From Sialis fuliginosa (lineage: Eukaryota > Arthropoda > Insecta > Megaloptera > Sialidae), in the NCBI GenBank assembly GCA_961205875.1, contig OY540820.1, positions 11,470,001 through 11,534,000 of the forward strand: a DNA stretch of 64,000 bases. Direction: 5' to 3'. The notes under the pieces are model-generated. The model worked only from the letters and a program-made list of their open reading frames with translations. It was not told the DNA's origin and searched no databases. The translations under genes and the position numbers were made by a program. Of the stretch, positions 12,520 to 43,604 are shown in pieces; the stretch's first letter is position 1, and each line of letters starts with the position of its first letter.

Positions 12520-12635
12520 TGTCTAAAAGCATACAAAAATAAGAGAGATTCAGAAGCCAAAATAATTAATATTTTATAATAAACCGAAAACTGAAAGTTT
12601 TATTAACAGTACGTATAGGTTTACAGAAATACTCT

Positions 12636-18402: not shown

Positions 18403-18633
18403 TTTAAATGTTAATAGACAAGTATGTTTTATTTACTTTATTTATAAGAGAATACTATACATAAAGTAGGTACTACCGATTTATTTATTTTGCACGCAAA
18501 TAGTTATCATGAAATGTAAATAATTAATGTTATAGTTCTATCAAACGGAACTACATAAACAATGTACCATTAATAATATATTAATATGTGATTTTATTAT
18601 GATTAATTAGACACGAATATAATAATGGGTTGA

Positions 18634-20145: not shown

Positions 20146-20171
20146 GTCACACGTAGTTCACTATTTACAAA

Positions 20172-21155
20172 ATGGAAATTCATAAAAAGGTTTTTAGAGC
20201 ATGTCACCATAATAACCTAGAATTATTGGACAAATTGTTACTTGACAATAACATTCGTCATTGGAACATATTGCGACAAGCTCATACAGGAGATACTTGT
20301 ATACATATTGCAGCAAAAGCAGGGAATGTTAATGTTATTGAGTATCTTTTAAATTTTTGTAATCCTCATGAAAGCATTGATATAGGTAACAATGATTCAA
20401 AAACTGCACTTCATGAAGCTGCACAATCCAGTCAGTTTATGGCAGTAAGATATTTAATAAATAATGGTGCAAATGTAAATGCGTTAAAACGTTCTGATTG
20501 GACACCGATCATGCTTGCATGTACGAAAACAGGAAATGATGCTTTCAAAACAGTCCAAACACTTTTACAATACAATGCATCAACTTCTTTGTTTAACAAA
20601 GATGGTTGGACAGCTATACATTTAGCAGTGAGAAGTGGTGACTATGAAATTGTGAAAATGTTAATAAAATATGACTTAAATAGTATGTTTTTTAAAAGTA
20701 GGACTAATCGAACAGTTTTACATACAGCCTGCTTCCATGATCGTATACATATAGTGAAACTTATCTTAAATAGTTATTCTTTTGACTTAGAAGATAAAGA
20801 TGACTGTGGAAATACATGTTTTCTTGATTCAGTTTTAAGTGGCTCGATAAAGTTAGTCAATTTTCTTGTTTTTGATGTGGGCGTTGAGAGATATGTAGTA
20901 AATAATGTTGGTTTCAATGCGTTACATATAGCGTCAATGTCAGGTGATATGAAAATGGTAGAATATTTAGTTACGGTTCTTGTATTTGATCCTAACAAGT
21001 TAAGTACTGGAGTAAATGCTGTTACTCCTCTACATTGTGCAGCAAAAGGAAATCATAAAAGCGTTCATAATTTACTTATAAGGTTAGGTGCAAATGAAAA
21101 AATTATGGATAGTTTTGGTCGGACAGCTTCTGATTATTTAGATGGTGACACGTAG
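20172..21155 (+). CDS. Ankrd16: ANKRD16-like ankyrin-repeat protein
   Basis: Encodes 327 residues made almost wholly of ankyrin repeats. About nine are visible, starting near residues 3, 40, 76, 109, 144, 179, 212, 247 and 285, with typical TALHEAA, TPIMLAC, TAIHLAV, TVLHTAC and TPLHCAA cores. The order and spacing match vertebrate ANKRD16: RYLINNGANVNALKRSDWTP and LFNKDGWTAIHLAVRSGD correspond to conserved ANKRD16 blocks. In mouse, ANKRD16 binds alanyl-tRNA synthetase and takes mis-activated serine onto lysine side chains; transfer of that role here is inference. The CDS has no intron, but a 5' leader intron of only 58 nt is likely at 20088-20145 (TTG|GTAAGA ... TTTTCAG|GTC). The ATG at 20172 follows a short spliced leader. 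The gene stands alone on the plus strand between the Gr and SVWC arrays. Confidence 0.85.
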   Translation: MEIHKKVFRACHHNNLELLDKLLLDNNIRHWNILRQAHTGDTCIHIAAKAGNVNVIEYLLNFCNPHESIDIGNNDSKTALHEAAQSSQFMAVRYLINNGANVNALKRSDWTPIMLACTKTGNDAFKTVQTLLQYNASTSLFNKDGWTAIHLAVRSGDYEIVKMLIKYDLNSMFFKSRTNRTVLHTACFHDRIHIVKLILNSYSFDLEDKDDCGNTCFLDSVLSGSIKLVNFLVFDVGVERYVVNNVGFNALHIASMSGDMKMVEYLVTVLVFDPNKLSTGVNAVTPLHCAAKGNHKSVHNLLIRLGANEKIMDSFGRTASDYLDGDT

Positions 21156-21755: not shown

Positions 21756-24700
21756 TTATGTGTTGCATTGAATTGTCGCACAGCATTCCGGAAATGGTTT
21801 ACTTGAGTCAATGGGAATCGGGACACATTGAGGATCATCTTGACTTGTTCCGCAACTGGAAGTAAATAATTATATCTGTATATCATCAAATCACGTTCAT
21901 ATTTACTTGAAAGTAAATGTACATAATTCCGGCTAAGTACATAATTACGGCCTATTTTATTAAAAATTAATAAATAAGAGATTTCATTGTCGTTACTTCA
22001 GATTTCGAAAAATAACCAAACATAGATTCAATTCAATTAATATCTTCTATGAAATCTCTTACAGTTATTAATATGTACATTTACCTTAATTGTAATTTTT
22101 ATAGAATATTGTAGATATACACAGATTACAAACAAAAAATAATGAGTTAATATTTTCTTAGTTAAAATAGAGTTTGGGTTATTTGGGTAGAAAAGGACTG
22201 AAAGGAAATTAATCTCTGTTTTATAATCTTTAAATAATTTACACGTGTTAAAAACAGAATCTTACAATTAGTTATAACTTTAAATATACCTACAGCTGGA
22301 GCAACAAGTTTTTTTTTTGCTTTAAGCAAAAAAAATTTTGCGTGCTTAAAATTCTTTAACATCTTAATTTTACAAAAAAAATATATATTAAATTTATTTT
22401 TATTATCATGTGTGTTAAAATAATATATTTAAATAATAAGAATTCTAAAATGTGTAGCTATCGATATTATTTGGATTAGTGGAGCGGTGTAAAAAAAGTA
22501 GTCATTACCCCCTCACTGAAAATATTGAGGGGGGGCAGTCTTTCTGCCCCCTGCCTTCCCCGGCTCCGGAGCCACCAAATGGAACATAAAATATCGATAG
22601 TTATATTCTCTATAATTTTTATAAACAATCACTAAACCGGAAACGGGTGTTTACTATTGTCAATTTTTTAAATTTTCGAATTATTTTTGAAACGATGCGC
22701 AAAAAAGTGTTTTATATAGAAATTATCGAATATATAATTATCTACAATTTTTGTCCCATTCATTTTTTAACATCCTTTATGATTTAGCCAAAAAGATTTT
22801 TTGTTTTTTGTACCTACACAAATAATTAAAATTTAAAATCACCCACACTGTTCACTCTCAGTATTATGTAAAGTACAGCTAGTACCTACTATATATAAAT
22901 ATGTTTATTTCATATACATGGGTATAAGAAAGCAAAAATCTTACCGGCATGGCTATGGCACCCTTAAATTCAACAATGATAAGTCGGTAAGACATAGTAT
23001 TAAATTAGTTAAGTCAATATATTTCTTATTTATTTTTAATAATACTGCATAATATTTCACATATATTTTGATAAACAAACGTAGTACATAATTAAAATAC
23101 AATAAATAACTTATATTTTCATCAAATTAACATTTATATGAAGAACAACAATCAGGATAAGGTTTAGATGTGTCCATCGATATCAAGACACACGGTGCAC
23201 TTACGTACATGGTAGCACATCTGAAAACATTTTACAAATCAGTACGTAGTAAGTACAGTAATACTCCGTTAAGCCCGGCGCACACGACGCTAGATTTGCT
23301 GCTAGTTTGTTTGCTAGATTCAATGCTGGTTTTCAAGCGTGTTTCGGCGCTGGATTGTTGTCATGGTTTCAATGTGTGTTGGCTTCACACGATCCTTGAT
23401 TTTTTAGATGGTTTTGATGCGTGCAAAGTGACAGTTCTAATATCAACATAATACTGTAGTGGATATGGTTTATGAAAATAAAAAAATCCTTTGGGTGAAT
23501 AATATATAATTAATGTTTATTAATTTCAACAGTTAAACTCAATGATCTAAGTTTAAAATTTCACTACAATTCAGTTTTCTCACATTTATTTTTTACATTC
23601 AGGATCGATCTTATAAGGTATGTTTAATAAAACTCACATTTGAATATTTGTAAAATGGACATAATTATTTCTTATGATTTGTACGAACAGCTGTTACAAA
23701 AGTATACGCTATGACGCCATGTTTGTTTATGACGTTTATGCTCACGTGACATTATAATATTTTCTGATTGGTTCTTGCTCAAATCTAGCAGCAAATCCAG
23801 CACGAAAAATAGCCCCGGTTCTATTCTGAAATCTAGTATGATAGCACGCAGCGTAGCAAGCAGTGACGTCATTTCCAGCACAGAAACAAGCCCGGTTGCC
23901 AGCACAGCAACCAGCAAGCAAACCAGCAGCAAATCTAGCGTCGTGTGCGGCGGGCTTTACGCTATATATGAGACCGAAAAAAACCCGAGTAAAAAAAAAC
24001 AAACGGCCGTGCTATGGCCGTGGTGCATTCACTGTTTCACAAACAAATCTAGTGGTGCGGCCATTCGCGACTCCGACTATACGGCAACACTAGGTTTGTT
24101 TGTGAAACAGTGAATGCACCACGGCTGTACGGCCGCACCATGACCATAACACGGCCGTTTGTTTTTTTTACTTGGGAACCGCGTAGGTTGAGGTACATCT
24201 TTGTATATAATTTTTTTTAATTAGAGTCAAGGGCTAACTAAAACACCAATGCATATAGAAATATAGATGAGCTACATAAAACGAAGTTATTTCGTCCAGT
24301 GACGCACCCGGAAAAAAATTCGAGGGGGGGGGGTAATTTTTTAATTACTTGTACTTTTTAATTTGTATGTACAATTGATAAATTAAATAATATTTATTGA
24401 CAAAGTCGGGAGGTTAACCCCTAAATCCCCCTCCTTGGGTGCGCCACTGATATCAACGTAAAAGGCTTTATAAAATCTAACAAACTCGTCTTTGAGTACG
24501 TTTACACAGCGCTGTTATTCCGGTTTTATTATAACCGATGTAGTTAAACCGTTTCAAGTGGTGCTGTTTACACATACGAGAATAAGTGACGTCAGCTGGA
24601 GTTATAATTCCGATTTGAAATACACTATAAGTAAATTCGATGGTGTACCAACAAGAAATCGCAAAAATATTTCGTCTCTTTTACGTCCACGAATCACGTT

Positions 24701-26294
24701 TCTTTTGTTTTCCATCTCTTCGTCTCGGGTGTTTTAACTATATTTTAACTGACGACGCTTTTTCAAATGTTAATGCGAAGTGCATTACGATGAAATCCTT
24801 ATACTCCGTAGATACTTTTTTGAGGTATAACTATGTCCATGCAGTTTACACGCATTTTTATGCCTGCTCTATTCCGGTTTACTTATGCTATTCCCGTAGA
24901 CCAAGAAGAATAGCATAACTAAACCCAATTAAAACTTTTTTCTTATTTTGCTAAAAAAATAGGTATCTATTGCTTTTCAACAATTTTGGTCTGAATAATT
25001 GATTATTATTTAATAAGCAAATAAAGGACATTAGGTAACATTTTAAAATAAATATTATTTTAGAGATAATAACAAATAAATTGTCGAAACGTCAAATTTA
25101 TTAAAGAAATAAGTATTCGCAAGCTTTCGATTCACAGAATCATCGTCAGGCTTTCAGAAGGAAATAAAATATGAGAGAGATGTTGTATTCTCAAATATAT
25201 TTAAGTAGCTACGGGAATTATTTTATTATTTAATATATTTAACGTCATTATATTATATTATTATTTTAGAGATAAATAGGTAAGGATGATAACTAGGTAA
25301 GGATTAAAAATTTCAGTTTATTAAAATATTTTACCCTATTCCAGTCAATGTGAAATCTGCGTTGCATTGAATTTTCTCACAAAATCCAATTAACTGTTTT
25401 GTTTCTCCTGGTACCATCACCAAATTGTGTTTATCCCAGGTACACCTACGATTGATCTCTAAAACATATATAAAATATTTAAGTTAAGAGGTATTCTCAA
25501 ACGATTATTTATATGCTAGATAGGTGCCTATATTTAAAAGTCGGCGTAGGTATATACAGTAATTTTATAATCACTCGAAATACTGACGTATCTAGAGGGG
25601 GTGGCTGTATACACGAAAATATCATAAAATATAATTGAGCATTCAAGAAAAGAAAAATCCATTTCACATTTAATTTTTGTATGAAAAATGCTTTTTAGAA
25701 ATGCATTTTCTTCTCAAATTAATTATTCTGTTGTTGGACCCCACATCTTTTCGCGGGCCCCAAACCGCTAAGAAGTTTAATATTTTGATGTCAATTTTTA
25801 TAATAATTTAACGACTCGAACACAAAACAACTTTATGACTCACCACGCCGTGCTACCCTAGCTCTAGGCCCCAAGCTAACCCTGTTAGAGCCCTCCTTCC
25901 TTTTTGTGAGGGTCATGAATATTATTAATTATAATTTATTTTGAAATATAAATAGTATGAAACTTATGTTATTTTTGTAACTCCGAAGAATAAAAACCCG
26001 GGAAAAAATTTCAGATTTGAATTGATCAAATCAGATCTTGATAGATCTGCATTTTGAGACAACATCATATTTTTTTCACTGGTTTTTGATCTGTGGAGAC
26101 CTGCAAACATCTACAACGACCTACAAAGATTTTTTTCAGATCTGAATTTTTTTCCCGAGAAGGTAAAACAATTTAATATAATAGAAATATGATATTAACT
26201 CACTCGCACTATTTGATGCTGGCACACTATAGGTATACCCATGTATAAAACCAAAATACAAAACGAACAAAAATGTAGAGAAAGTGATCTTCAT
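21756..26294 (-). CDS. SVWC-domain secreted protein 1
   Basis: Small secreted cysteine-rich protein of the single-domain von Willebrand factor C type. Exons: 26204-26294 (signal peptide), 25335-25458, 21756-21855. They total 315 nt (104 residues). The leader MKITFSTFLFVLYFGFIHG is a clear signal peptide; a second, upstream in-frame ATG at 26351 would only weaken it. The mature part has eight cysteines in the order C, C-x4-C, C, C, CC, C, with the ending PFPECCATIQC. Intron phases (1, then 2) and the 124-nt middle exon match the paralogues. The last intron is 3479 nt and is filled with repeats. The middle exon runs straight into TAA if unspliced, but the distant third exon restores the full domain in phase. 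Function by family: extracellular, possibly immune or stress-induced. Confidence 0.75.
22455..22615. repeat. Short palindromic repeat flanked by TATCGAT
   Basis: The block is bounded by CTATCGATATT and ATATCGATAG inverted ends and contains a small inverted pair (CCCCCTCACTG...GAGGGGGGGC and GGGGGCAGTC...CTGCCCCC). It lies in the last intron of SVWC 1. Likely a small MITE. Confidence 0.4.
23268..23962. mobile_element. Fold-back element in SVWC 1 intron 2
   Basis: The ends pair: AAGCCCGGCGCACACGACGC followed by TAGATTTGCTGCT on the left; the inverse AGCAGCAAATCTAGCGTCGT followed by GTGCGGCGGGCTTTAC on the right. The interior has short GCTGG/CCAGC-rich units. No transposase is seen. The locally high GC produces overlapping open frames on both strands that I do not accept as genes. 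Confidence 0.65.
23990..24178. repeat. Inverted repeat GGCCGTG...CACGGCC
   Basis: Two arms, about 24003-24050 and 24090-24165, carry inverted copies of GGTGCATTCACTGTTTCACA and of AAACGGCCGTG. Separation is about 45 bp, so the RNA or single strand could form a long hairpin. It directly follows the preceding fold-back element. Confidence 0.55.
25100..25152 (-). ncRNA. Hammerhead-ribozyme-like core
   Basis: On the minus strand: CTGACGA (25143-25149), an unpaired T, a perfect 5-bp hairpin GATTC-TGT-GAATC, then GAAAGC. Hammerhead cores read CUGANGA-stem II-GAAA, so N7 = C is allowed. One extra base between A9 and the stem is atypical. It lies in intron 2 of SVWC 1 and shares its tail (TGACGTTTCGACAA) with 7.05-7.14 kb. 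Penelope-like retroelements are known to carry such motifs. Confidence 0.4.
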
Positions 26295-27302
26295 TTTGAT
26301 AGAATTTTGAATTAAAAAATTCACAATAATTTCACGTTCGTTAAATTTCACATAAAATAAAATACTTCCATTAATTTATACTAAAAAATTACGACTAATG
26401 ATTTATCATTCTGACAGTTTACAGTACATTTGTTTTATTATTAACTGTCTTATATTTCATAAAACATTTTATGTTTAGATTATTGAAAGTATTCAGTTAC
26501 CTGGAAACGTATTAAAATATTTTTTAAATTAATTAAATATCATAATTAATCATAAAAGTACCTATACCCACTCAAATTAATTCAAGAACTTATTTATTTA
26601 TTTTAGTTTATTTAAAAAAAGATATTCACTATTTTTTAACGTACTATAATTCTCATATCACCAATACTATATTGTGGAGTTTTGACCTTAAGGTCATGAT
26701 AAAAATATATTCAGTATTTATTGTTTTTACATTTGTATTTAAAATATATATTGGAACATATTAAAAAAGTTATTTTTCTAAATTATGTTTAATTCACCTC
26801 TGGGCATTTTTTTATTATTCATTTATCGTCAGAAATTTTATTTTCAATCAAATGAAATAATAGGTAAACATAAATTATTTATCAATTCTTTTTTTGTAAC
26901 ACAAAACTAATATGATTGCATCGTAATAACAAAATGAAATATGTATATAGGTATTAATCGATTAATTTTTTAAAACAAAACAAATAACTTTTTATGTATC
27001 TTTATTGTGTCTTTATTAATTTATGAACATTTGTTATTTAGTGTTATGATTTTCAGCCAGTACATTCATACAATATTTTTTTTCAATTGTTGATAATATA
27101 AAAACTGCATAGTTGAATGGTATTTTCTTTTATAAATCATATTGTTTTCTGAGTTTTCTATATACAAATTTTCATTGCCTTTTTTAATGTTCTATGCTTT
27201 CTTCATTGTCATCACATTATAATAATCCGAATCCCAGTTTATGCTATATATGTTTATGAATTATTATAAATTATTAATGTTGAAAATCATTTATTTGATG
27301 TA

Positions 27303-28228
27303 CTAAAAACTTCGTGGGCATACAATTTTAGGGCAGCACTTTGGATAATCTCTTGACGGGTTTATTTCAGTTAATGTACAATGCGATGGGGCTCCTATTA
27401 AACCACAGCTAGAAAAATAAATTATATTTATTAGAACAGGGGTTCTCAAACTTATATGAACCGGGATGCAATCGACGCTTTAATCAACTTGGAATACACT
27501 GTATAACTGAGGTTCTAAAAGGGAGCAGCACTTTTACAGCTACAGTAGAAAGGGTTGGGTGTATATTTTACACTGATAACCAAAACTGTGTTAATATTTT
27601 TCTGTTAAAATTCATTTTCAAAGAGGTATCATTGGTATCAAAAATTCCTCATTGTTCGTTTCTCGGTGTGTAATATTTTTAAATTTTTCTAGGGACCCAC
27701 CAAAACTGACCCACGCTTTTTTAGAACCTCTGTATTAGAATATAAAACATGAATATTATATAATATTACCTCATTACAGTTATCGATAAGTCACCTTGGC
27801 ATGTTAATTTCAGACATTCGTCTCTTTTATGAAAATCTTGGCCAGGATACATTACCTCATTAAGTTCTCTGTAGAAACATTTTCCAGGGTACGCTGAAAA
27901 CCAATTATTTTATTATTATTATTATTGTTTATTTAGACTCTTGAAGCATTGAAATCATAATCTCTTCAAGTTTTATGTTTTTTGTTAGGTTTTTTTTATT
28001 AACTTTTGAAATTAACGAGAGACAAGTGTCGAATAATACATAGACAGTCTTGTCTCAATCTCGTATAGTGAAAATTGAAGCTGTCAAGTCTCGTAAATAA
28101 ATAACGTTTTTTTTTAACAATGTATTAAACTTACGATTAGGGACTTCAGGCGGTATAACCCAAACAGCTCCATTTATTTCCACATAAAACAAAACAGCTA
28201 ACAATAAAAATGTAATTCCCTTCTTCAT
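27303..28228 (-). CDS. SVWC-domain secreted protein 2
   Basis: Exons 28135-28228, 27770-27893 and 27303-27408, total 324 nt (107 residues). Signal peptide MKKGITFLLLAVLFYVEING, then AVWVIPPEVPNPYPGKC. Eight cysteines follow in the SVWC spacing, with DECLKLTC in the middle and YPKCCPKIVC at the end. Exon 1 ends in phase 1 and exon 2 in phase 2, as in the other four genes. No frameshift. Compact introns of 241 and 361 nt. SVWC proteins include Drosophila Vago (induced by viral infection) and La1-like peptides of chelicerates; the function of this one is not known. It differs from SVWC 3 mainly in the last exon. Confidence 0.85.
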
Positions 28229-28689
28229 TGTTAAATTTTTTTTGTATTATATTATGTACCACAGATATATTTAAAATGAAGTAAATATTATAATATAAAA
28301 TCCATGGTTCATATATAGTCTAAATGTAACCATTTTTTAAATAGATAATTAGTTTTCTTAATATCCCGGTTATTAATATCTCAATACATTTTATTAAACA
28401 TATTGTACAGAGTGACCACATTATATATTTTAATATAATATATGCACCTAAAGAGGAAAATAGATTCGATCCCTCGCCTAAAGGTAACACCAATTTTTCA
28501 ATTAGTTCAGGTTATTGAGATATTCCAACCGAAAAGTGCCAAAAATAATGATTTTGGGTATATTTATGAATACTTTATACCTAACATATATTACCATTGG
28601 AGAAAGTATTTCGTAAATAAACAAAAGTTTCTTTTATTTTCCCTCCTATACTTTTTTTTACTAATAAACTATTTTTATTAACCTACCCC

Positions 28690-28880
28690 CCCCCCCTTCC
28701 CCCCATTTAACTCAGTAACTACTGGCTAAAAAATTGGTAATGAGGCTTTAGTGAGACTACAAATGACAAATACTAAAGTCAATAATATCGATTCAAATCT
28801 TGAAAAAATAGGGAGGGGTGTCATAGAATTTTAATTAGTAGAATATGACACCACTTGCAGTTGTTAGTGGCTCCAAACAG
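28690..28880. repeat. Dispersed repeat also present at the window's right end
   Basis: Shares TTGGTAA.GA.GCTTT, GACAAATACTAAAGT.AA and the TAGTAGAATATGAC block with about 63755-63960. It follows a poly-C tract. Class unknown. Confidence 0.5.
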
Positions 28881-29689
28881 TTAACGTAGTACGTACTTCG
28901 GAATCCGATTTTTTTTAGTAAACCTAGCTAGTCGGTTTAGAGAAATTTGACTGTATATTTTCAAGACGTTTAAAAGATATACGACATAAAAATGAGTTAA
29001 AATAATTTCATAGAAAAGTAAAATTTAAAACATCCTATAGTATATTTAATTAGTTTATTATTATGTAAATATATTATATAATATTTGTCTTATGTAATAT
29101 TAATTTGCAAGCACGTATAATTATTATGCATGTATTATATATACAAAAAAACATTATTGTGTTATTTATTATTTCTAAAATTTGCAATTCTACCTACAGA
29201 CTATAATGACTATCGTATTTCAATATTAATATAGTTCATTTGTAAATATTTATAATGAAAAATAATTAAAGAGAAATTATTTTTATATTTACCTATTACA
29301 TATTATTATTATGTAATAAAGCAATCATCATTAAAAATTTCTATTAGGTAATAACAATTTAAATATTCTAAATCATTATGTATAAGATATTACCTTTATT
29401 TTATAGGAGAATGGTTTTAAAAAATATATTAGTTATATTTAATCTAGAGGTATACCGGAATTCCGGCCGGTACTTACGATTTAGATTTAAAGTGAATACT
29501 TTAACGTCACTACTATTATATTATTACTTTTATATTATATTATTATTGACACTATAAATGTAATTACATTCGATCGAAAAGAACGTATGCTATACAAATA
29601 ATTTAACGAAATTATAGAAAAGGTTTTACGAAGCTGTAAAAATTGCAGAATATGTAGAAAATACAATTTTTATAATGTAATGTATTTTC

Positions 29690-30120
29690 TTAAAGAAATC
29701 TACTATATATAACGAAGTGCCCTGACTGACTGACTGACTGATAATCATTTTTTTGACCATTTCCACTCATCGGAGAAACTTGAAATTTGGTATATACATT
29801 CCTTGGGGGTAAAAAATAACAACTAGTGGGCCTTTTTTGAAAAAGTTTATAAATGGGGTAACAAGGGGCCCCCAATTTTTCAAAAAAAAAGTTAGAATTT
29901 TTTTATTATTTTTTTTATATTCCTTGGGCGGTATAATGTAAGGTTCAAATTTCAGATTTAAAAAAAAAGAAAAAAAAAGGAAAAAAAAAGTTTTGATGTA
30001 AAAAAGTATCAAAACGAAAACCGATATTAGATTTTTTTAATTTTTTTCAAATACTTTGGTTAATTGACAACCATAAACCCGTGTCTGATTTTTGAAAAAG
30101 ATATGTTAAAGAGGAGAAAA
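29690..30120. repeat. Repeat DNA with (GACT)n and poly-A/T tracts
   Basis: A run of CTGACTGACTGACTGACTGA is followed by CTTGAAATTTGGTATATAC, a phrase typical of insect Helitron/SINE-like repeats, and by long A-tracts. The intergenic space 28229-33699 holds no exon that I can support apart from the repeats listed. Confidence 0.4.
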
Positions 30121-32484
30121 TAAACAAAATACGTTTACATATAATGCGCTTTAAGCATTTACTAAATTAATTGCAAATGTCGTAACTATGGATACATTAT
30201 ATTTTATTGATTATTTTAAAAAAATTTAAATGTCAGTGGCCATTTAAAATTTTGAAGTGAACAATAAAATATAACAAAAAAGAAATATAAAGAACATAAC
30301 GAATGAAAAAATATGCACAACTCTAATGTAATATATAATTAAAATTTTCATAAATAAATTTGACAAAAAAATTGAAGACAAACAATTACAGCATTCGGAC
30401 ACAATTCGACCAACATTCGGCGATAGATATGTGTTCCCGGTACAAATAAAAATTAAGTATATAATGACATTTTTTTAATCTTAAGTCATTGAATTATCAA
30501 TATTTTTACTTTCATAGGTATAGGTATTTTATTATATTTATTTGTAATCATAAATATCAGAAGAATTTATATAATTTCAAATTAACATTGTAATTTTAAA
30601 TGATATTATTTTAATTGTTGTTTGAAACTGTATATCTGTCATCTTTACCCAATGTACTAACCTAAAATGTACATTTACAAAATTAAAACAAGATGTTGAT
30701 TTATTGCAAATTGTTACGAAAGCTTCATTCAATTGACAAGACCTATATTTGATTGTAATTAATTAATTAATTGTACAAAGGGTGTACGAGTATCTACAAG
30801 AGCTAATAATGTATTTATATAGACACATTGATGAATTTTTGAAAGACACGAGCAGAAAAACCAAAAATGAAATTATTTTTAATATTCATAAAATGTTCAA
30901 ATCATGTAAGTACATGATGTAATACAATACATGTACCAGAAGTCATAAAATAATTTTTTGTCGTTGTCATATCAGAAACAAATGTCATAATATGTATTTA
31001 GTATGCAATATATTTTCATACGACAAGAGTTGAAAACGCATCGTAAACAAATATACAGGTAATCCTCGACTTTTGTCTTTGTCTCTTTCTTACATGCACA
31101 TATTACATAAATGAAACAAACAGTTCCGGGAATTTCCCAAAAATGTAATTTATTATTATTTATGTAGATATTTTTGGGAACCCGCAACTGTTTGTTATGT
31201 ATAGAAAATGCGATTCGCTTCACATCAAGGAAAACGTCCAAAGCAAAAATATGTACATATTGTACGTGTTAACTTACAACTTATTCTATTTACGATCGAT
31301 GTTTAGAAACCTATCTCGGTTGTAAGTCGAGGAATACCTGTACTACGATATATAACGTATGTCTTATCAGTTTAAGCGTAAAAAATATCAAAGTTAATAT
31401 TCAATGTTTTTAAATGCTGCGAGAAGTTCAAACATGCTTGACTGATTTAAATTTACTTTTTTCCTTATTTTATATATTACTTACAAAATAACCAAGACGT
31501 TCCATTAAAATTTCAGGATTTGTGAAGTGTTCTGTCGTAGGAAAAGTTTAGGAAGCACTGTTCTACATCATACTTCAATATCAACCAAATTGAGTTATTG
31601 AGGGTAAAAAATATATTGAAAAAACCTCATAGAGAAACCATATTTAGTTTGTGCAATAAAGTTTTAACAGGTACGATTTTTCTAAAATATCTTAAAATTA
31701 ATAAAATTAAAATTGATAAAAACCCAGCTCTAATGAATAAATAAGAAAGCACTCCGTCACAGCACTATATTATTCCGTCGCGGGAAAGTACCTACCATAT
31801 AGGCCAGTCAGGATCCACTCAGGGCTAGCTACGTCACTGGTTACGATACTATATTATTGTTGGTTACGATATTTCATAAAACAGATATCGGTGCTTAGAA
31901 TACATTGTCTGGAGGAATACGATAAAAGTTTTAACAGATTTTTTAGCGGAAAAGAGAATTTTGTCGCTTATATATGAGATTTTTAGAATCGATAACTCAA
32001 TTTCGCAAAAAGTATATCTTACGATACTTTGCCTTGGATGGGACGATATAGAAATAATTTAACCAGGTATGTTATAATTTAGGTATATAAAAACATAGTA
32101 CCTAGCCATGGAATACGGAATTTTATAATTTACGGTTTCAATATTTTATTTTATTAATTTAGGTTACTATGATTATGTCTCTTTAAAATATTTTGTCGAA
32201 CAATTAAATGATTTTTGACACATATTAACAATTAAATATTTTGAAATGCCTATATTGATTGAAAATTTAAATATGAAGAAACATTTCACTTCTATGAAAG
32301 GTAAAATATCGAAATTAATTATTAGGTTTGGTGTAAATTTTTCGAAACACAATTTTTCGAATCACAATTTTTCAAATCAAAATTCTTCGAATGAACAATT
32401 TTTCGAAAAATTTAAGTTTTATTGTTCAAATTTTAATTAGTTAATAAAATATTAAGTAAAGTAATATTTGGACATTTTACGATA

Positions 32485-33438
32485 TCCATACTAATATTAT
32501 AAATGCGAAAGTGTGTTTGTCTGTCTGTTTTCTGTTTGTTACCTTTTCACGGCTAAACCGCTTTACCGATTTTGATGAAATTTGGCAGTGAGATAGCTTG
32601 CATCCCGAGGACGGACATAGGCTATTTCGTATCTTAAAAATTCAACCCCTAAGAAATTGCAAGGGGGTAGAAATTTTTTAATTTTTTTTAGTAATTATTA
32701 TTTTACCCCCCGATACATATGAAGGGTTGTAAGTGGTTTTATTCGATCCGGCGGGAAAAATACCACGGGGGCGTAGGTTTTAGGGGGCAAAACAACCCTC
32801 TATCTCGCATAGGAGCCGAGATATTTACGATTTTGTATAATGAAAGAAAACTAAAAATAAGAAAAATTTAATATTTTACCCCCTGTCACATATGAAGAGT
32901 TGTAATTGATTACATTCGATCTGGCGGGCAAAAATACTACGGAAGAGGGATTATTAGGGGGACAAAACAACCCCTTATCTTACATAGGAGTCGCGACTTA
33001 TATTATAAATGCGAAAGTGTATCTCTCAGTCTGTCTATTTGTTACCTATTCACGACTAAACTGTTTTACCGATTTTGATGAAATTTGGCAGTGAGATGGC
33101 TTACATCCCAAGGACGGATTAAGGCTATTTCATATCTCGAAAATTCAACCCCTAAGGAATTGCAAGGGGGAGGAAAATTTTAATTTTTTTTTAGTAATTA
33201 ATATTTTACCCGTTACATATGAAGGGTTGTAAGTGGTTTTATTCGATCCAGCGGGAAAAATACCACGGGGGTGGGGGTTTTAGGGCGGAAAAACCCCTCT
33301 ATCTCGCATAGGAGCCGACACATTTACGATTTTGTATAATTAAAGAAAACTAAAAATAAGATAAATTTAATATTTTACCCCCTGTCACATATGAAGGGTT
33401 TCGAAATCCACGCGAGCGAAGTCGCGGGTAGCAGCTAG
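32485..33438 (+). mobile_element. Helitron-like element (two internal units)
   Basis: It begins with TC at 32485-32486, then CATACTAATATTATAAATGC, and ends CTAG at 33435-33438. Twelve bases or so before the end is a hairpin CGCGAGCGAAGTCGCG. The flanking bases are A (32484) and T (33439), as expected for Helitron insertion between A and T. Two similar units (about 32487-32990 and 33000-33420), each with TATTATAAATGCGAAAGTGT and GATTTTGATGAAATTTGGCA, are in tandem. No Rep/helicase is present, so it is non-autonomous. Confidence 0.75.
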
Positions 33439-33699
33439 TACCATATAAAACAATGTTATATTTAAAATATAATAGTAGTAACGTTAAACGTGAATTCCGG
33501 CCGGAATTCCGGTACACCTCTAATTTAAGTGCAAATATAGCAATCCACTTTAAGTTAATATTAATACCTAACTGCTCAATAAAGTACTTAAATAATAACA
33601 AATTTTATTTTGTTTTTATTATGTCTATATTTTTATCTATACATATAAATACAATTTAATCCTGCAATTCTTGTTTGATGTATTGACAAAACATTCCAT

Positions 33700-35329
33700 T
33701 TATGGACAAGAAATTTTAGGGCAGCAATCTGGATACCGTTTTGAATAATCTTTTTGAGTAACTTTACATGGTAGATCAGTGTGTACTGACCCACAGCTGA
33801 AAAAAATAAAATAAATAATTATAATAAAGGACGCTCATATGTAATGTTAATGTATATCAATAGATATAGAGCATGGACTGCATGTGCATCTGGTTCGAAA
33901 AAAAAGATACAGAAACGTAATAATTAACACACACAACTAAATCGGTATAAGTGTTTATTAGAATATGGCAAAAATGTCAGTTATCATGTCAATTTAAAAA
34001 CTATACAAAATAGATCTTCAATCGAAATTATGCCATGATGTTTCCCCCTCGAAACCATACAATTTTTACCAATAACATTTTTTTTCTAAAATGCATAGCT
34101 CCCGAAATATTTACTTGCAACAATTTAAAATTACACTTAATAAATATTACAACTTACCCCATTCCTGTTAAGCTCAAGTCGCTATTACACACCAATTTCT
34201 CACATTTATCCATTATGAAATGTTCATCATTGGGTTTCATTTTTAAATTAAGGGTCTTGTAGTAACATTTTCCAGGGTATACTAAAAATTAGCATATTTT
34301 TTATGTATAAATATATTTTTTATAAAAAAAACAAAAGTGGTCAAATTGCAAATCTTGTTATTATGACTCTCTTGGTGAAGATAAGTGGTTACGAACCTTA
34401 CTTATCTTGAGCTTCAATAGAACAAAATTACAAGAGACCTAATATGTAGAATATGTTATAATAAAACAGCCAAATGCGTGTTGAGCACGCACATGATAGG
34501 GTTTCGTAGTCATCCCCACTACGATTAATAAAAAAGAGTTATTTCAAATTTTTTCATTATAATTTTCATTGATTAATTAAAAACTACATTCTGGATTTTT
34601 TCCAGATTTTTTGAATTTATAGTTTAGAAATTAGAGGGAGGGGGGACGTTAAAATCGATAAAATCAAAAGGTCATATAACATTTTTTGTTGCATTTTAAG
34701 AGACCTATCTAAAGATACCCGCAATCAAAAGTGAAAAAAAAAATGTGAGTACACTTTTTAGTCTATGGGAGCGGGCCCCAAAAATTTTTTGACAGTATTC
34801 GTTATAATTTTCTGTGATAGTACTAATTAAAAGCTACATACTGGATTTTTTTCAGATTTTTTACATCAATAGCTTAGAAAATAGAAAGGGGGGACGCTCT
34901 GATAACGATGCAAATATATTGTGACTGAAGGGTAAAATCAAAGACCCTAAAAAGAAACTTATCAATCTATGGGAAGGGAGTTTAAATATTTTTTTTCAAA
35001 AATCTCATCATTTCTGTTTTTGGGTTAGTCCATATACAAAATTTCATGTTAATTCAAAAACATGTTTAATTGAAGAACGAAAAAATTGGAATTTGGTATT
35101 TGTTTAATTTAATCTTATTTCATGCAGTAGAGGTCAAGCGCAAATTTTACAATGTCATAATTTATAATAAATACAGAAAAATGAATTGATCTAGAAAATA
35201 CGTTTTAAAAGGTTTTTATATATAGGTATACTTACGAATTGGTAAACTAGGTCTTATTTGATAAAGATATCCATTTATTTCCACATAAAATAAAAGTGTT
35301 ACCAGCAGAAATGAAAGTCCGTTTTTCAT
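33700..35329 (-). CDS. SVWC-domain secreted protein 3
   Basis: Exons 35236-35329, 34158-34281 and 33700-33796, total 315 nt (104 residues). The signal peptide MKNGLSFLLVTLLFYVEING is nearly the same as in SVWC 2, which suggests recent common descent. After YPGKC the middle exon has DKCEKLVC and LTGMGC, and the last exon ends RYPDCCPKISCP. All eight SVWC cysteines are present. Intron phases match the family. Intron 1 (954 nt) holds a repeat with two similar GGGGGGACG blocks (34630 and 34890). Predicted secreted; role unknown. Confidence 0.85.
34480..35000. repeat. Repeat in intron 1 of SVWC 3
   Basis: It contains TGCGTGTTGAGCACGCACAT followed by GATAGGGTTTCGTAG, a sequence type common in insect MITEs. 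Two imperfect direct units then follow (AAAAACTACATTCTGGATTT and AAAAGCTACATACTGGATTT, each followed by TTTCAGATTTTTT and a G-rich block). Confidence 0.45.
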
Positions 35330-36014
35330 GATTCGAAATGAATGTTTATACTTTGTACTAGAAATACCACATTTGCTTTGAAATAGCAATGACAATATTA
35401 TTTACATTCACAGTTTATATACGACTACTCATGTTTAACATAATAATATGTTTGTGCTCATCTAATTTTAATCATTTTTAATTAATGGATTTTTATTATT
35501 TATATTTTAATAGTGCATGAACTTTAATCAATGTACAGCGTGAGACAAAAAGAGTTTTTAATATTTGTTCTTAAATATCAAATCAATAATCAATTAATCA
35601 ATAAAAAAATAAGAAGTAGAAAGGAACAATTGCATTAAAAGGTTTTTATTGTTTTATATGTTTATTTGACACCTATTGAAGGGGAGGGGGGAGGGTAAAA
35701 CTAGTCACTTTTCAATGTTTTTTGTATAACTCGAAAACTAAGCAGAATTGGGCAATTTTACAAGAATAATTTTTTATAGAAAATTGAATTTCCCATCAAA
35801 TTAAAGGTTTAAAAAATAAATTTTATACAAGAAATATTTAAAAAACAAACCAAAAAAATATAAAAAAATCACAAATTTTTACTAAATTGTAAATAAAAAT
35901 AGGCATAGGAAATGCTTTGGAGAAAAAAATTAGAGGTCATGCCCGTCAAAATGGCTGGTCGAAAAAGTTTTTTCGATGAAAATTGGCTGTGATATAGCCA
36001 TTCAATCAATAGCC

Positions 36015-36475
36015 TATACGTGGATTATTGTTTAATTAAATGTACTAAATTAGAAATATTTGTTAATATTTGATTACTGCCATTTTTGAATCATAATCTA
36101 GAGACACTTAACTGCAAAACAGTTTAATTTATGACAATCGACCAATGATGTCAAAATGGAGGACATTTAAACTAGTGTAGTCTATTTAATAATTATTATA
36201 TTAGCATATATGTTTTACACTGTTCCAAATTTTTTTATTCTTTATTTTATAACTTTTATGTCGTAGTACTTATCATTTATAATACTTATCATTTTGTTTT
36301 CAACTGGGTGCCCATTACCGGTTTTACTTGGTCCATTATTGGAGAGAAAAAATAAACAAAATAAAAGGCTATAAATTAAAAAAACAAACTATATTTGCTG
36401 TCTTTGATATTAATGAGTTCATGAGAATTACCTTGTTCTTAAAGCGTCCAATACTGGAGTCAGTACCTTTCATAT
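36015..36475. mobile_element. MITE family E, copy 3 (degraded)
   Basis: The interior matches the family (AATTAAATGTACT.AATTAGAAATAT, GACAATCGACCAATG.TGTCAAAATG). Only the right end (AATACTGGAGTCAGTACCTT) still resembles the terminal repeat; the left end is lost. It lies between SVWC 3 and SVWC 4. Confidence 0.6.
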
Positions 36476-36841
36476 GTGAACAATCTTTCCTGATAGGTAT
36501 CTATCTACTATTTAAAATGAATTTTTAATACCTCTGCATTTAAATATGAAAAATAAGTAGTTTTATGATAAAATATTTTTCAATAAAAATACAATATTAA
36601 TGTTAATATTTATTAAATAATATAAGTGAATATATATGTGTCATTCTCAAGCAAAAAAAAACCACATCCAAATAAATGTGTTGAACACACAGAAAAATAG
36701 AGTAAACAGGAAGTTACAAGAATTATTTATAGATTTTTTTGCATTTGAATGACTTTTATAAGTAGTTTAATTATATAATACATATATACCAAAAAATCAT
36801 AAGTTTAGAGTATAATATTAATTTTAAATCACAGTTTTAAT

Positions 36842-37445
36842 CAGGGACCTGAACTTGAACCCGAACCCGAAACCCAAAAACCCCTTATTTTTAATTAACC
36901 TGAACCCGAACCGTTATATTTCAAAGTCTACGAACCTGAATCTGAATTCGAATCTTTTCATATATTTTTAAAAGATTCAATAATTTAATTCTAATATTTT
37001 TCTCCAATGATTTTTAAAAGAGATTATAAAATGTACTAACTGGAAATCTGTTTGAATTTTATTGTTGACTTTAAGTCCTCTACAAAAATTTACATATTTT
37101 TTACTTTGTTTTTTAATTCTATAACTGAATTACATTTCAATTTGCAAAAAAATCTGAAAAGTAGAGATTTCAATCTTTAAAATATTATTTATTTCTTGTC
37201 CCTTTTCTAGCCATATTTTAAAGGCTATTAATTTTTTTTTCTTCAGAAAATGTTTTATTTGTAAATTATAATTTTTTTTTCGAACAAAATAATTTTCTTT
37301 CAATTACAAATTTGAACCCGAACCCTAAAAAGATAACGGTTTTTAACCTAAATAGTTTGCACCATGCTGAACCCAAACTCGAACCTAAATTTATATTTGA
37401 ACCCGAAAAACCCGAACCATAAATAAATTTCGGTTCAAGTCCCTG
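36842..37445. mobile_element. hAT-like MITE with GAACCCGAAC repeats
   Basis: 604 bp. Starts CAGGGACCTGAACTTGAACC and ends GGTTCAAGTCCCTG. Flanked by 8-bp direct repeats GTTTTAAT (36834-36841) and GTTGTAAT (37446-37453), one mismatch, which fits hAT insertion. Both ends contain clusters of GAACCCGAA. No transposase. Confidence 0.75.
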
Positions 37446-37470
37446 GTTGTAATGATTATGTCAACAAAAC

Positions 37471-38840
37471 TTAAGGACATTTTGGCTTAGGACAACATTC
37501 TGGATATGGCAATGAAACATCTCCGTCCGTCATAAAACATGGAGGCTTTACAGCCATTAAACCACACCTGAAACAATTGAAAATAACATTATAAAATACA
37601 TAAACATATATTCTTTTTCCCTCCAATAATAAATGTAAAAATTGTTATAATAAAACAATAGATACCAAATATACTATATTATCATAAATGTATTAATAGT
37701 TATTACCTATATAAGTAGAGATTGGAAAAATAGTTGTTATTTTCAATAAAATAGTTGCTAGTTGAATTTTTTTTCGGAAAATAGTTGGTAAATAGTTTTT
37801 TTTTACAATTTAATAATAATTAGTGCAAACGAAGCAGTAAAAAGTGTCGTAAATAGTTTTAAAATAGTTGGAAAGGTAGTTGCAAATAGTTGATTTCAAA
37901 TTGTGTTCAATCAAACCAGTTTTCTGAAAACGGTGGAGATATGTAATAAAAAATTACAATAAATGCATTTTTACGCAATAGTTGAAAAATTATTTTTCCA
38001 ATCTCTAGTAATAAGTAATTATATGAAGTTTAAAAAAAAATCCTTGAATCAATTATTATTATTTTCATGATCATGTAAGTATTAGACAAAAAAAAACAGC
38101 AACATGGTGTATGGATATGGATATTATATGACAATGCCCTCTTTATCAAACTAACAAATAAATATTTTTTTAGTTGTATTTACCCTGTTCCTGTAATGAA
38201 CAAATCTTCATCACATTCTAACTTCTCGCATGATCCAATAAGTTGATGCACTTCGTTGGGCTCCATTATCAGATCTTTTTCTTCATAGTAACATTTTCCT
38301 GGATAAGCTAAAATATATAAACATAATAATAATATTTTTATCATAAAACATGAGTTATTTTTAAAATTAGTACAAGTTCAATTATGAACAATAAAATAAT
38401 AATAGTAAAATACCAGACATTAATTGTACATGAATTTTTTTAAAGAAATATTTAAGTAAATTATTTTTATTTGTATTAAAAATATAGTAATAAAACTAAA
38501 ATTAAAATCAATAACTAGCATCAGTGAATCAGTTCACGACGCCCTTAATGTTTCAGTAATTTTTCACTGAAGTACTCAATGGTTCTATTTATTTCGTAAT
38601 TAGATTTCAGCAACTTGCATGAAAAATAATACACATAGTAAATTGAAAGATTATTTTTAATTTGATACTTTTCATACATTTTATAGGTAAGGTGCCTTTT
38701 TTATTTCAATTCTCATTTTTAAGCTAATAAAAAAGAATAGGTAAGTACTTACGTTGAGGAAATTCAGGATCAATTTGATATATGTACCCTTTTGCAGATG
38801 AAAAATAAACAACAAATAAAAAAACAAATATCAGTTTCAT
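37471..38840 (-). CDS. SVWC-domain secreted protein 4
   Basis: Exons 38753-38840, 38184-38307 and 37471-37567, total 309 nt (102 residues). Signal peptide MKLIFVFLFVVYFSSAKG, then YIYQIDPEFPQPYPGKC. The middle exon carries GSCEKLEC and ITGTGC, and the last exon ends LPYPECCPKPKCP. All eight cysteines and both intron phases (1 and 2) are kept. The short C-terminal exon has the same length (97 nt) as in SVWC 3. The second intron carries a small fold-back element. Predicted extracellular; function unknown beyond the family. Confidence 0.85.
37716..38007. mobile_element. Fold-back MITE with ATAGTTG repeats in SVWC 4 intron 2
   Basis: Ends TAGAGATTGGAAAAATAG and ...TATTTTTCCAATCTCTA-type inverse copies. 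The interior is rich in AAATAGTTG units. 292 bp. No clear target duplication beyond AATAAG-like flanks. Confidence 0.6.
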
Positions 38841-39065
38841 TGTTCTTTAATTTATTACAACTCTTAGAAAATATTTGTTAACAAAAATTTTGTAATAAAA
38901 TATAATGATTTTATCAAAATAAAGTACCTATGTTTCGATTAGTATGAACATTAATAATGAAATACTTAATAAAAATGATAAAACTTATCTACTTGAAAAT
39001 ACATATGACCAAGCTAGGCTCCCCTAAAATTTATTTTAGAGTGCAATGCAAGTTTTATATACATA

Positions 39066-39112
39066 TATTAGTAGCTGTACCCGCGCGGCTTCGCCCGCGT
39101 GGACTGTGGAAT
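39066..39112 (-). mobile_element. Orphan Helitron-like 3' end
   Basis: On the minus strand: a hairpin CGCGGGCGAAGCCGCG followed by CGGGTACAGCTAC. This is the terminus of the Helitron-like family, with the last base of CTAG changed. The rest of the element is not evident. Confidence 0.5.
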
Positions 39113-39282
39113 TATTGTTTAGGTTTTTTGAAAAATATAGTTGAATTAAGTACAAACACGATTAATTATTATCGTAATAAATTACCTAAAAAAAACGAAT
39201 CAGAACTAAAATTACAAATAATTTTTGTTCTGTTCAAATTTAAAAGTTAATAATATAATAATTGAAAACAAAATAAACAACT

Positions 39283-39690
39283 GTCGGCCGAGCGCAGAAT
39301 CTTCCCTCTGCCTCCACGACACTTTTTTTCTTTGTAACATAAAAGCAGTCACTGTGGCTTAAATATAAAAATTTGACATATGGTGCCGCGGATTTTATTT
39401 TAGATCTTATTCTACACAGTTCTTTAATACATTATTTTGTTCAATATTGAACGGTTTAGGCAGCGTACTGCAAAATAGCGCGCTGGCGGCAAACTTTTTT
39501 CCGACTTGATTTACTATTATCGTCACTGCTTAGTTGTTATATTACCTAACGTAACAAAATATAGCCTATAACCTGACCAGAGAATTAAAAAAGAAACCTC
39601 GTAAATCGGATAAGTGGTTATCGAGTTATAAGCGTACTAACGGACAGACAGACAGACAGAGAGACGTTGAGCTTTATACATATTAAGAAT
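39283..39690 (-). repeat. Dispersed repeat (inverted copy of 12636-13030)
   Basis: On the minus strand it starts near 39688 with TATAAAGCTCAACGTCTC and (CTGT)n and continues through the TAAGCGGT.. and AACTAAGCAGTGACGATAAT blocks found at 12.7-13.0 kb. It lies between SVWC 4 and SVWC 5. Confidence 0.6.
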
Positions 39691-39942
39691 AATCCATATT
39701 TATTTATTTATGTATTTATCAATTTAATTCTAAGAAAATTGTTTCATTTTACTTCGATTTTTATGCCAAAATCTGTATAAAAGATATATTCCGTTTATAT
39801 AATTAAAAATAATAAAAAAATTTATAACCCTTTTACCCGTTCATGTATGCGGTTATATTGCCAAGTATGAAATATAATGATATAATTATTAACTCGCAAT
39901 ACAACGAACAATTATTTGATAGAGTGGGGGAATGTTGTAAAC

Positions 39943-41223
39943 CTTACAAGGGAAGATCCCCCGGTGCCACTCTCGGATTTTAATGAAACTTGGTAAAAAT
40001 GTTAATCAGGTAAAAATTAAGGACACCTATTTTTTATTTGTGTCCGTTTTTAAGTTTAGGTGGTGAATTGAGGGTAAAATTTTAAATTTGTAAATAGCTC
40101 GTAAACCGCTTGGAATAGTAGCTTGAGTATAGTAAAAAATTTGTTTGATATTATAAAAGCTATAAAATAGCATAAATGTGGTACCCTCTACAATTTTTAT
40201 TTGGGAGGTATAATGGACACCCCTCAGTTTTTTTCCAAAATAATTATTTTTTCTTTCATAAATCAATAGAGTGTAGTATTCTAAATACAATGATATAAAA
40301 TTTCAAAGTAACGTATCTTCAAATATCGGAGATATTGGCAGTTTTGCAGTCCGCATGAATGAATATTTTCATTGCCTTGGCATGAATAGTTTTAAAACAA
40401 TTTTTTCATAAGGGAGGGGGGGTGAACCAGGGCGACCACCCGTGGCACCAAGTCAGGTGGGGAGGCGCACAATGGGGCATCAGTGACTTTTTTTATTCAA
40501 ATCAGTATGCAGGCTATAATTTTTGAGTAAACTTTTTTAGAGTCTGTAGGATCGCGCCAAGCTAAGATATTATTCAACTTATTTATTAATTTATCAATTG
40601 TAATTTGTTAATAATAGGGGAAAGGGGTCTCGATGGTCTTAGGGCATTTGATAGCCTTAAAGTTAATGGTGTAAGATATATTTTTAAAAAAAGTTGGAGT
40701 CTGTAGGATTGCGCCAAGCTGAGATATTAACTATTCAACTTATTTGTTAATTTATCAATTTTAATTTGTTAATAATAAGGGAAGGAGGTCTCGACGGTCT
40801 TAGGGCATTTGATAGTCTTAAAGTTAATAGTGCGCTTTATGCCATATACTTTATACAGTGTATGGCGGTCTACAAAAGTGCCGATATTTCCGAAGTTTAA
40901 AGATACATCACTTTAAAATTTTATATCATTATATTCAGAATATTACATTTGATTTATGAAAGACAAAACAATTATTTTGAAAAAAAATTGAGGGATGTTA
41001 TATCTCCCAAATAAAAATTGTAACATTTATGCTAATTTATAGCTCTTGTAATATCAAACAATTTTTTTAACTATACACAAACCACTATTCCAAGCGGTTT
41101 ATGAGCTATTTACAAATTTAAAATTATACCCTCAATTTCAAACAGGCACGTATAAAAAATAGGTGCCCTTAATTTTTTACTAAGTTTCATTAAAATCCGA
41201 GAGTGGGGATCTTTCCTTGTAAG
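39943..41223. mobile_element. 1.28-kb fold-back element with tandem core
   Basis: The arms are 300-400 bp and inverted: CTTACAAGG(G)AAGATCCCC at the left pairs with GGGGATCTTTCCTTGTAAG at the right, with TTTTAATGAAACTT, TAAACCGCTTGGAATAGT and TCCAAAATAATTATTTT blocks inverted in register. The core has two direct copies of about 140 bp (from 40540 and from 40697, both starting GAGTCTGTAGGAT.GCGCCAA). The left edge of the core (40425-40560) is related to the hAT-like insert at 45552-45785. No coding capacity. Confidence 0.75.
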
Positions 41224-42129
41224 TAATGCTAATTATTATACTGAACCTATTATAGTTAACGTAAATGTAATTATTGTACGTAAGTAAGATCATTAGTTAT
41301 GACAATTTCACTATGCACGAACGAACTTGATGAAAATTTAAAGAAATTATTTAAAATTATTTATTTACTTCAAGTAATTTCCTAAATTATAAGACCAAAT
41401 ACTTATGACGATTTAATAATTTATTTCGATAAGAATTAATGTTTTGCAGGTCATAAGTCCACGTAAACAGAACCCACAGATTTTTAATTTTCTTTGTAAC
41501 ATAAAAAATAAATATGGAAAATTGCGCACAGTTACCCGTTGTACACATTACTCGACCCCCCCCCCCCCCCTAACACTTTGAACAGTATGAACTGTAATCT
41601 CTTTATCAACTTATTTTAAATATAATATATACATGACCTAAAGGTGAAATCAACAGTTTTTAATTTAATTCATATTTATCTTTGCAAAATAAATAATGTT
41701 AAATATCAAAATATTTATATGATTTATGTTTATGCATTACATATGCAAACAAATACACATTGATGTAACAAGTGTCCTAATTTATATTATTTTCATTCGA
41801 TTTCGATTTTAGAACGATTGATTATACGTCAACTTCAACTTCTTATAACTATGTAAACGTTTATAATATTTTTTCAAAATACATATGGGAGAAACAATAT
41901 TAACTTTAATTTTTATAAAAACTTTTTTTAAACAATCTAACTAAATTATGAAAATTCAGAATATTTAATATTTTATTTTTTTTATTTTCGAATTATAGAT
42001 CTCTGGATCACAGACCCATATTTATGCAAAAAAAAATAATAACAGGATTGTTAAAATTATAGGTAGGTACATAAATAAATTGTGCAAATATAATATAATT
42101 AATACTTAATTTCATAATAATAATAGGCA

Positions 42130-43604
42130 CTACATTCTGTTTTTATGAGAATAATAACACATCATACGTGAACAGCAACGTGGGAATTTTTTCATAAGAT
42201 CTCCTGGAACTACCTCACAACCAGGGCGCATTTTAAGTTTTCCACACCTAAAAATAAATAAATATTAGTGAGTAGAACTTATAATCCATTCCATTAATTC
42301 CCTGTTTTTAATTAAACTCTTAAGAAATTAAAACATCCTGAAAAACATTTAATATAATCGTGCAGTATATAAATTTTAAAATTATAAATTTTCCGCATTA
42401 TTACGAAAATAAGAAAGAGGGTCAATTTCCGCTGATTTGGTTATACATTTTAACATACCAAATGCCTTGGTCCTTAGCCCCCCCCCCCCACACAGAAAAA
42501 TTAACAAGTTCCGCCCAGGCATAAAATGATTTTTCTCAAGGTCGCTATGGGTACTAACATTTAAAAAAACATTTTACCCTGTTATACGATAGGCTAGTTT
42601 TTTTGCAGCCAGCTCTTGGTCTAATAGATGCTATTTTGCTTTTATGGAGTTTCCTGATCGATTTAGAAACATATTTAAAAACGGTTACAAATTAATGAAA
42701 ATTTATTATTAGGTTCTTTCATACTTTTTATTTTAAACTTAAAAATTGATATTTATTAATGAATTAACATATTTTCAGTTTTTGATTAATAAATAATTGA
42801 AAACAATTGTTTTGATTTAGCATTTCCACTACATACAGACTTGTTGATAAAAACACAACAGCAAGTTTTTAAAAAGTAACTAACTTACAATAAGTAGTTT
42901 TGTGCAGGGCCGTAACTAGAGGCTCTGGGGTCCTGGGGCAGCAAGTGACCGTGATGCAAAATATATAATGATATATAAAAATTGAAATCTTGCCGACCCC
43001 AATTTTTACGCTGCTGCGGTCTCTCCTTTTGTTTGGGGAGCCCAAGGCACTACCCCAGTGGTAGTTACGGCCCTGGTTTTGTGTGTTTTAATCGAGTTAG
43101 TATTTTGCTGGTTTGGTGGAAACCCGTATTAAATGTATACAAAAATAAATGAAGTATTTACATTTGCATGTACAAAAATCCCCCGGACCTACAAGTAGCG
43201 ACTTCGCACACTTCTCCAGGTTGATACATATCTCCAACATCCAGTCTTACATTGTGTTTTTCCCAAAAACAATGTCGAGGCACTAAAAGAAAAAATAATT
43301 TCATTTAAACTAGACTTATTTGGTTATAATAATACAATAAAATCTTAAACTAAAAATACACCTTAACGACAATAAAACAATGTCACTCGACACGTGTTTC
43401 GACTTCACAAGAAGTCCTCATCAGACTGGAACTGTTAGGTTTCTTTTTGTGAAATCGAAACACGTGTCGAATGATATTAAGTGACTTAAAAAAACACAGT
43501 CCCTTCGTTTTCCAGTAGTAATATAATAAGAAATTTTACTTACAGAACCCCTGAATTTGCACAAAACAGAGTAAAAAGAAAGAAATCAAACACAGCGTAT
43601 TCAT
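42130..43604 (-). CDS. SVWC-domain secreted protein 5 (divergent)
   Basis: Exons 43544-43604, 43162-43282 and 42130-42247, total 300 nt (99 residues). Signal peptide MNTLCLISFFLLCFVQIQG is followed at once by FLPRHC, so the N-terminal spacer found in paralogues 1-4 is absent. The domain keeps eight cysteines: HC, GEVC, VATC, QMC, RPGC, RCC and MMC. A C-terminal tail YYSHKNRM replaces the usual ending just after the last cysteine. The middle exon is 121 nt rather than 124. Phases 1 and 2 are conserved. It is the outermost and most divergent member of the array, next to the SLC16-like gene. Confidence 0.8.
42905..43075. mobile_element. hAT-like MITE with perfect 8-bp target duplication
   Basis: 171 bp in intron 2 of SVWC 5. 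Ends CAGGGCCGTAACTA and TAGTTACGGCCCTG are perfect inverted repeats. GTTTTGTG flanks both sides (42897-42904, 43076-43083). A degraded relative lies at 61613-61750. Confidence 0.85.
43372..43500 (-). ncRNA. Hammerhead-ribozyme-like core in an inverted repeat
   Basis: On the minus strand: CTGATGA (43418-43424), an extra G, a perfect 6-bp hairpin GACTTC-TTGT-GAAGTC, then GAAAC, a short ACGT loop and GTC. This is the order of a minimal hammerhead (core, stem II, GAAA, tiny stem III, GUC cleavage triplet). Stem I is weak as read. A partial inverted copy (TCGAAACACGTGTCGA) lies at about 43455-43472. It is in intron 1 of SVWC 5. Likely derived from a retroelement. Confidence 0.45.

Follow-up and report, generated by a model that had tools for sequence, protein, structure and literature searches.

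Layout of the gene array

The window, which is the whole stretch of 64,000 nucleotides of Sialis fuliginosa DNA that was analysed here, contains five SVWC genes arranged in tandem and head to tail on the minus strand at 21,756–43,604, with 1.0–5.5 kb between the stop of one gene and the start of the next. Each gene is composed of three exons, and the introns are of phase 1 and then phase 2 in all five. The first exons (61–94 nt) are signal-peptide-like, each with a methionine and a hydrophobic stretch as judged by eye, the middle exons are 124 nt long in four genes and 121 nt long in one, and the last exons terminate 0–8 residues past a CCxxxxC motif. The spliced models contain no stops and no frameshifts and give precursors of 99–107 aa, each with one 67-residue eight-cysteine domain. 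A first-pass annotation of this DNA had described five minus-strand three-exon genes that splice in frame, with phase 1 and then phase 2 introns, a middle exon of 121–124 nt and a last exon closing near CCxxxxC, and all of these features were recovered in our models.

Gene 1, the last in the row, begins with a signal-peptide-like exon at 26204..26294, which ends in phase 1 at a GTGAGT donor, and continues with a middle exon at 25335..25458, which encodes the N-terminal SVWC subdomain with three cysteines and ends in phase 2; its last exon is treated separately below. The first, middle and last exons were located at 28135..28228, 27770..27893 and 27303..27408 for gene 2, at 35236..35329, 34158..34281 and 33700..33796 for gene 3, at 38753..38840, 38184..38307 and 37471..37567 for gene 4, and at 43544..43604, 43162..43282 (the 121-nt middle exon) and 42130..42247 for gene 5. 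All of them lie on the minus strand and were placed by both the gene models and a profile census, where the first exon of gene 5 gave the weakest of all exon matches (21.6 bits). All 10 donors are GT and all 11 acceptors are AG, a count that is true by construction because the splice sites were picked by eye to fit; the real test of the models is the agreement in phase together with the open frames.

The census was performed with a profile from six proteins (the two possible products of gene 1 and one of each other gene) against the six-frame translation of the window, and returned five first, five middle and six last exons. The exon scores of 21.6–60.6 bits, with the next match in the window at 6.5 bits and the best among 20 first-order Markov random windows at 12.2 bits, are partly circular, as the true exons helped to build the profile, while the Pfam matches given below are independent.

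Family membership and cysteine pattern

All six possible proteins matched the SVWC profile PF15430 at 47.6–62.6 bits, against a cut-off of 27, with E values from 2.1e-12 to 4.2e-17. The first-pass annotation had read the genes as SVWC paralogues with signal-peptide-like starts and had proposed this very comparison as a check, and its family assignment is confirmed for each of the six. The cysteine spacing, C-20-C-4-C-10-C-8-C-13-CC-4-C, is the same in all six proteins, and intron 2 splits the codon just before the fourth cysteine in all six coding models, which comprise five distinct middle and six last exons. The SVWC domain is described with eight cysteines in one source (PMC13115929) and with a cysteine number of normally ten in another (PMC4434525); the gene 5 protein has ten cysteines in total, two of which are within its signal-peptide-like exon.

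It had further been claimed that the paralogues have clearly different loops between the cysteines, as expected for separate targets. The loops do differ in sequence, but their lengths are identical in all six proteins, and the step from loops to separate targets found no support here, neither in loop length nor in substitution rates. Among the 15 pairs of last exons (NG86, 30 codons), dS was computable in eight and exceeded 1.5 in seven of those, with genes 2 and 3 as the one unsaturated pair (dN 0.53, dS 0.74), and dN was lower than dS in all eight computable pairs. With dS either not computable or higher than 1.5 for 14 of the 15 pairs, the exon-3 dN/dS is uninformative, and positive selection is unsupported by these exon-3 pairs, a comparison of little power.

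The array thus consists of members of the known SVWC family, and its tandem layout looks ordinary because the family has many genes per genome. In Drosophila, 13 or 14 SVWC genes are counted depending on the source, with grooveless included (PMC13047442, PMC5977223), and the fly genome likewise contains several SVWC genes with a single domain.

Relatives were also sought in other sequence collections. A profile search of viral contigs gave 28 pattern matches, and a profile of three of the five genes gave 31 in viral contigs and 49 in prokaryote genome contigs, none of which was a relative, and a tblastn search of phages with the gene 4 protein alone gave no match. The null results in viral and prokaryote contigs are what one would expect of an intron-containing insect gene.

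Sequence surrounding the array

The window is AT-rich, with a GC content of 28.55%. It is insect-like in that three of the ten open frames submitted to Pfam matched Trehalose_recp, an insect sugar-receptor family, at 10.6–18.4 kb. The matching parts are at 10639–10995, 12211–12522 and 18064–18432 on the minus strand (region 10636–18432), and look-alike receptor frames were seen by eye at 3189–6791. These parts of putative sugar gustatory receptors suggest a second tandem array beside the SVWC array. Just past the end of the SVWC array, an ankyrin-repeat open frame runs uninterrupted for 332 aa from stop to stop on the plus strand (20157–21155).

A direct repeat of ~410 bp with 89% identity was found between genes 2 and 3 (32490–33400). 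Among the repeat pairs with one copy at 20–44 kb, a dispersed repeat of up to ~400 bp, 78–80% identical, was detected at 1045–1240, 17546–17950, 36027–36413 and 50148–50537. No match was obtained when the window was scanned for Rfam families and for tRNAs.

Two candidate last exons in gene 1

Gene 1 has two candidate last exons on the minus strand, a distal one (3a) at 21756..21855 and a proximal one (3b) at 23127..23220, between the middle exon and 3a. The earlier model of gene 1 ended in 3a, which is intact, and had skipped the nearer and also intact exon 3b. The two exons are ~1.3 kb apart, are identical at 13 of 30 residues and differ at 37 of 90 nucleotide sites. Each has an AG acceptor, a compatible phase, five in-register cysteines and an intact frame, and the stop follows directly after the final cysteine in 3b and two residues past it in 3a. 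AATAAA was found 81 or 93 nt past the stop of each last exon, where 2.3 occurrences are expected per 700 nt.

Some further elements were observed around exon 3b. An internal donor-like GTAAGT follows ATGTAC within the exon, probably by chance, since splicing from it would produce an exon of 16 nt whose phase does not fit 3a. In intron 2 of gene 1, an inverted repeat at 23267–23961, with 88-nt arms that are 80% complementary and 519 nt apart, starts 46 bp upstream of the 3b acceptor and is probably a mobile element; beside it, nested palindromes at 23992–24169 (42-nt arms 95% and 35-nt arms 91% complementary) resemble a foldback element.

With six last exons and five fronts, either the two last exons of gene 1 are alternatives or there was a sixth gene that is now missing its front. 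Alternative last-exon use by gene 1 would be the simplest reading of the pair. In simulations (20,000 runs), the share of runs in which an unconstrained 3b kept its frame and five cysteines fell from 16% at 0.1 substitutions per site to 3.2% at 0.2, 0.65% at 0.3 and 0.03% at 0.5. This control starts from a single sequence, evolves it under a simple substitution model and permits intact relics below ~0.2 substitutions per site (3–16% of runs). Given this decay and the number of sites at which the two exons differ, a long period without constraint is unlikely for either 3a or 3b.

A history in which 3a is what remains of a sixth gene in the row, whose exons 1 and 2 were recently deleted, and in which gene 1 uses 3b only, has a real chance of being correct, well short of even. 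Elsewhere in the array each copy is a whole gene, and 3a may derive from a separate lost gene because 3a and 3b do not appear to be clear sisters. Out of 1000 bootstrap replicates, 3a grouped with 3b in 331 (codon positions 1 and 2), 179 (amino acids) and 504 (all sites), and with the last exon of gene 5 in 365, 668 and 351, respectively; two of the three measures thus place 3a with gene 5, but the third favours 3b (504 versus 351), and the trees do not decide. The profile census and tblastn found no other first or middle exon between 21,856 and 23,125. This is in line with a deleted front, but it also leaves no remnant of exons 1 and 2 to attest a sixth gene, as the best tblastn match in the gap had an E value of 0.025 and covered one cysteine only. 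Furthermore, 3a retains its acceptor, frame, five cysteines and stop, all of which drift would soon break unless the loss was recent.

That gene 1 uses 3a and that 3b is a dead exon is very improbable: 3a is ahead of 3b in its pyrimidine tract (9/13 versus 7/13) and in its score with the window's own profile (42.1 versus 38.7 bits), and the mobile-element-like inverted repeat begins close to the 3b acceptor, but 3b is nearer and intact with a normal TTTTCAG acceptor, and the gene 1 protein scores higher against PF15430 with 3b than with 3a (56.7 versus 51.1 bits).

For alternative last exons in gene 1, a direct precedent was sought in the open-licence literature, the available text of which reports no SVWC gene with such exons; alternative last exons are reported among lacewing venom genes generally (PMC12758981).

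Proposed correspondence between exons and structural lobes

A profile search of PDB matched 6rpt_F and 6rqj_E, each with an E value of 2.4e-5 over profile positions 19–103 of 104. Both are structures of CirpT1, a tick salivary complement inhibitor (PMC6955305), which was the sole solved relative found by sequence. The third match of this search, 6gkv (E 0.77), is unrelated, and a single-protein PDB search, which gave three chance-looking matches near residues 10–31, was superseded by the profile search.

The structural report assigns residues 2–56 of CirpT1 to an N-terminal domain, which is joined to a flat C-terminal domain by a hinge and one disulfide, and describes a target interface formed by most of the C-terminal domain plus contacts of an N-terminal strand and loop (PMC6955305). 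The fourth cysteine of the array proteins aligns to CirpT1 residue 57 (offset 21, fixed by His7, Tyr23 and Asn59), which equates the last exon with the C-terminal domain. The junction of exons 2 and 3 would then coincide with the subdomain boundary of CirpT1, a match that is taken from one distant homologue and could be coincidence, and with the junction at that boundary a spare last exon would swap the whole C-terminal subdomain. As the cysteines are split into three and five between the two exons, full pairing of all eight would require at least one disulfide between the two lobes, as is seen in CirpT1.

Possible roles of the encoded proteins

The first-pass annotation had inferred a lineage-specific expansion of secreted immune or environmental-response factors. 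The sequence does not choose among the roles reported for SVWC proteins. It is quite conceivable, on the doubtful side of even, that the array proteins are developmental factors or belong to tissue secretions (saliva or venom, seminal fluid, gut lining), and are not immune signals. Members of the family have been reported from lacewing venom (PMC12758981), among tiger beetle seminal fluid candidates (PMC4434525) and in the fly larval peritrophic matrix, where they are classed as immunity/defence (PMC8035744), grooveless is an SVWC gene with a role in fly thorax morphogenesis (PMC13047442), and CirpT1 comes from tick saliva (PMC6955305). On the other hand, nothing seen in the sequence favours any one tissue.

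The immune reading in its strong form, in which the array encodes Vago-type antiviral cytokines that act via integrin and JAK-STAT, appears unlikely. Vago of Drosophila, Culex and Bombus is a secreted protein of the same family, with a single SVWC domain and eight cysteines (PMC13115929, PMC5040954, PMC5977223), and SVWC proteins have been reviewed as antiviral or immune signals and as pattern-recognition receptors (PMC13115929). The similarity of the array proteins to Vago is at the family level only. The array precursors are 46–61 aa shorter than bumblebee Vago (153 aa; PMC5040954) and fly Vago (160 aa; PMC5977223), where the Vago figures are reported lengths and serve as description rather than as a formal criterion, and the RGD or KGD integrin motif reported for Drosophila and Culex Vago (PMC13115929) is present in none of the six array proteins. 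Vago orthology of the array genes is not supported by their sequences.

Two kinds of short motif could nevertheless be cited for a Vago-type function. The gene 5 protein contains LDV, which is an integrin-binding tripeptide of other proteins, and xGD triplets occur in the proteins of genes 2, 4 and 5. A scan of the 800 bp before each of the five genes with consensus strings gave a STAT-like TTCNNNGAA in two of five (those of genes 2 and 3) and an IRF-like GAAANNGAAA in one of five (that of gene 5), both near chance. None of the five upstream regions has a kB, Dorsal, Rel or ISRE motif, an absence that counts against Vago-type regulation with low power and says little because at most 0.1 of each is expected. 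EcR and HSE consensus sites were also not found within these 800 bp, and GATA sites, which are common everywhere, were present upstream of four of the five genes.

Proposed explanation and comparison with known systems

We propose that the array holds five insect genes for secreted, two-lobed SVWC proteins that are extracellular binders mainly via the C lobe, with alternative last exons in gene 1, and we put the chance of this explanation at about even. The products would be secreted, and by homology to CirpT1 their domain would fold in two lobes with a hinge between them, where exon 2 would encode the N-terminal beta lobe and exon 3 the flat C-terminal lobe. To judge from CirpT1, they would probably bind another protein or a microbial surface outside the cell, mainly by the C lobe. 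Gene 1 would use both 3b and 3a and so yield two proteins with a common N lobe and different C lobes, which would differ in about half of the folded domain.

Somewhat more tentatively, at a little less than even, we suggest that gene 1 encodes two secreted SVWC proteins whose C lobe is swapped by splicing and that the C lobe is an exchangeable recognition module. Since intron 2 lies before the fourth cysteine in all five genes, splicing could in principle combine each middle exon with any of the last exons of the array. Partner choice among SVWC proteins is presented as an open question in a 2026 review (PMC13115929), and isoforms that differ in the C lobe alone would, if the proposal is true, allow a direct test of whether target choice lies in the C lobe.

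Compared with CirpT1, the array proteins have eight cysteines that align with its own, and CirpT1 provides the two-lobe fold with its hinge. In contrast, the C1–C2 and C5–C6 segments of CirpT1 are shorter, its C3–C4 segment is longer by one residue, and it inhibits vertebrate complement C5, a role that is not implied for the array. Compared with the SVWC family as modelled by PF15430, all 66 model positions are covered in all six proteins, which also have the eight cysteines and a signal-peptide-like N terminus, and the difference lies in one array gene with two candidate last exons. The array otherwise adds new members to a known family, and the duplicated last exon at what would be a subdomain boundary is its one unusual feature, of modest novelty.
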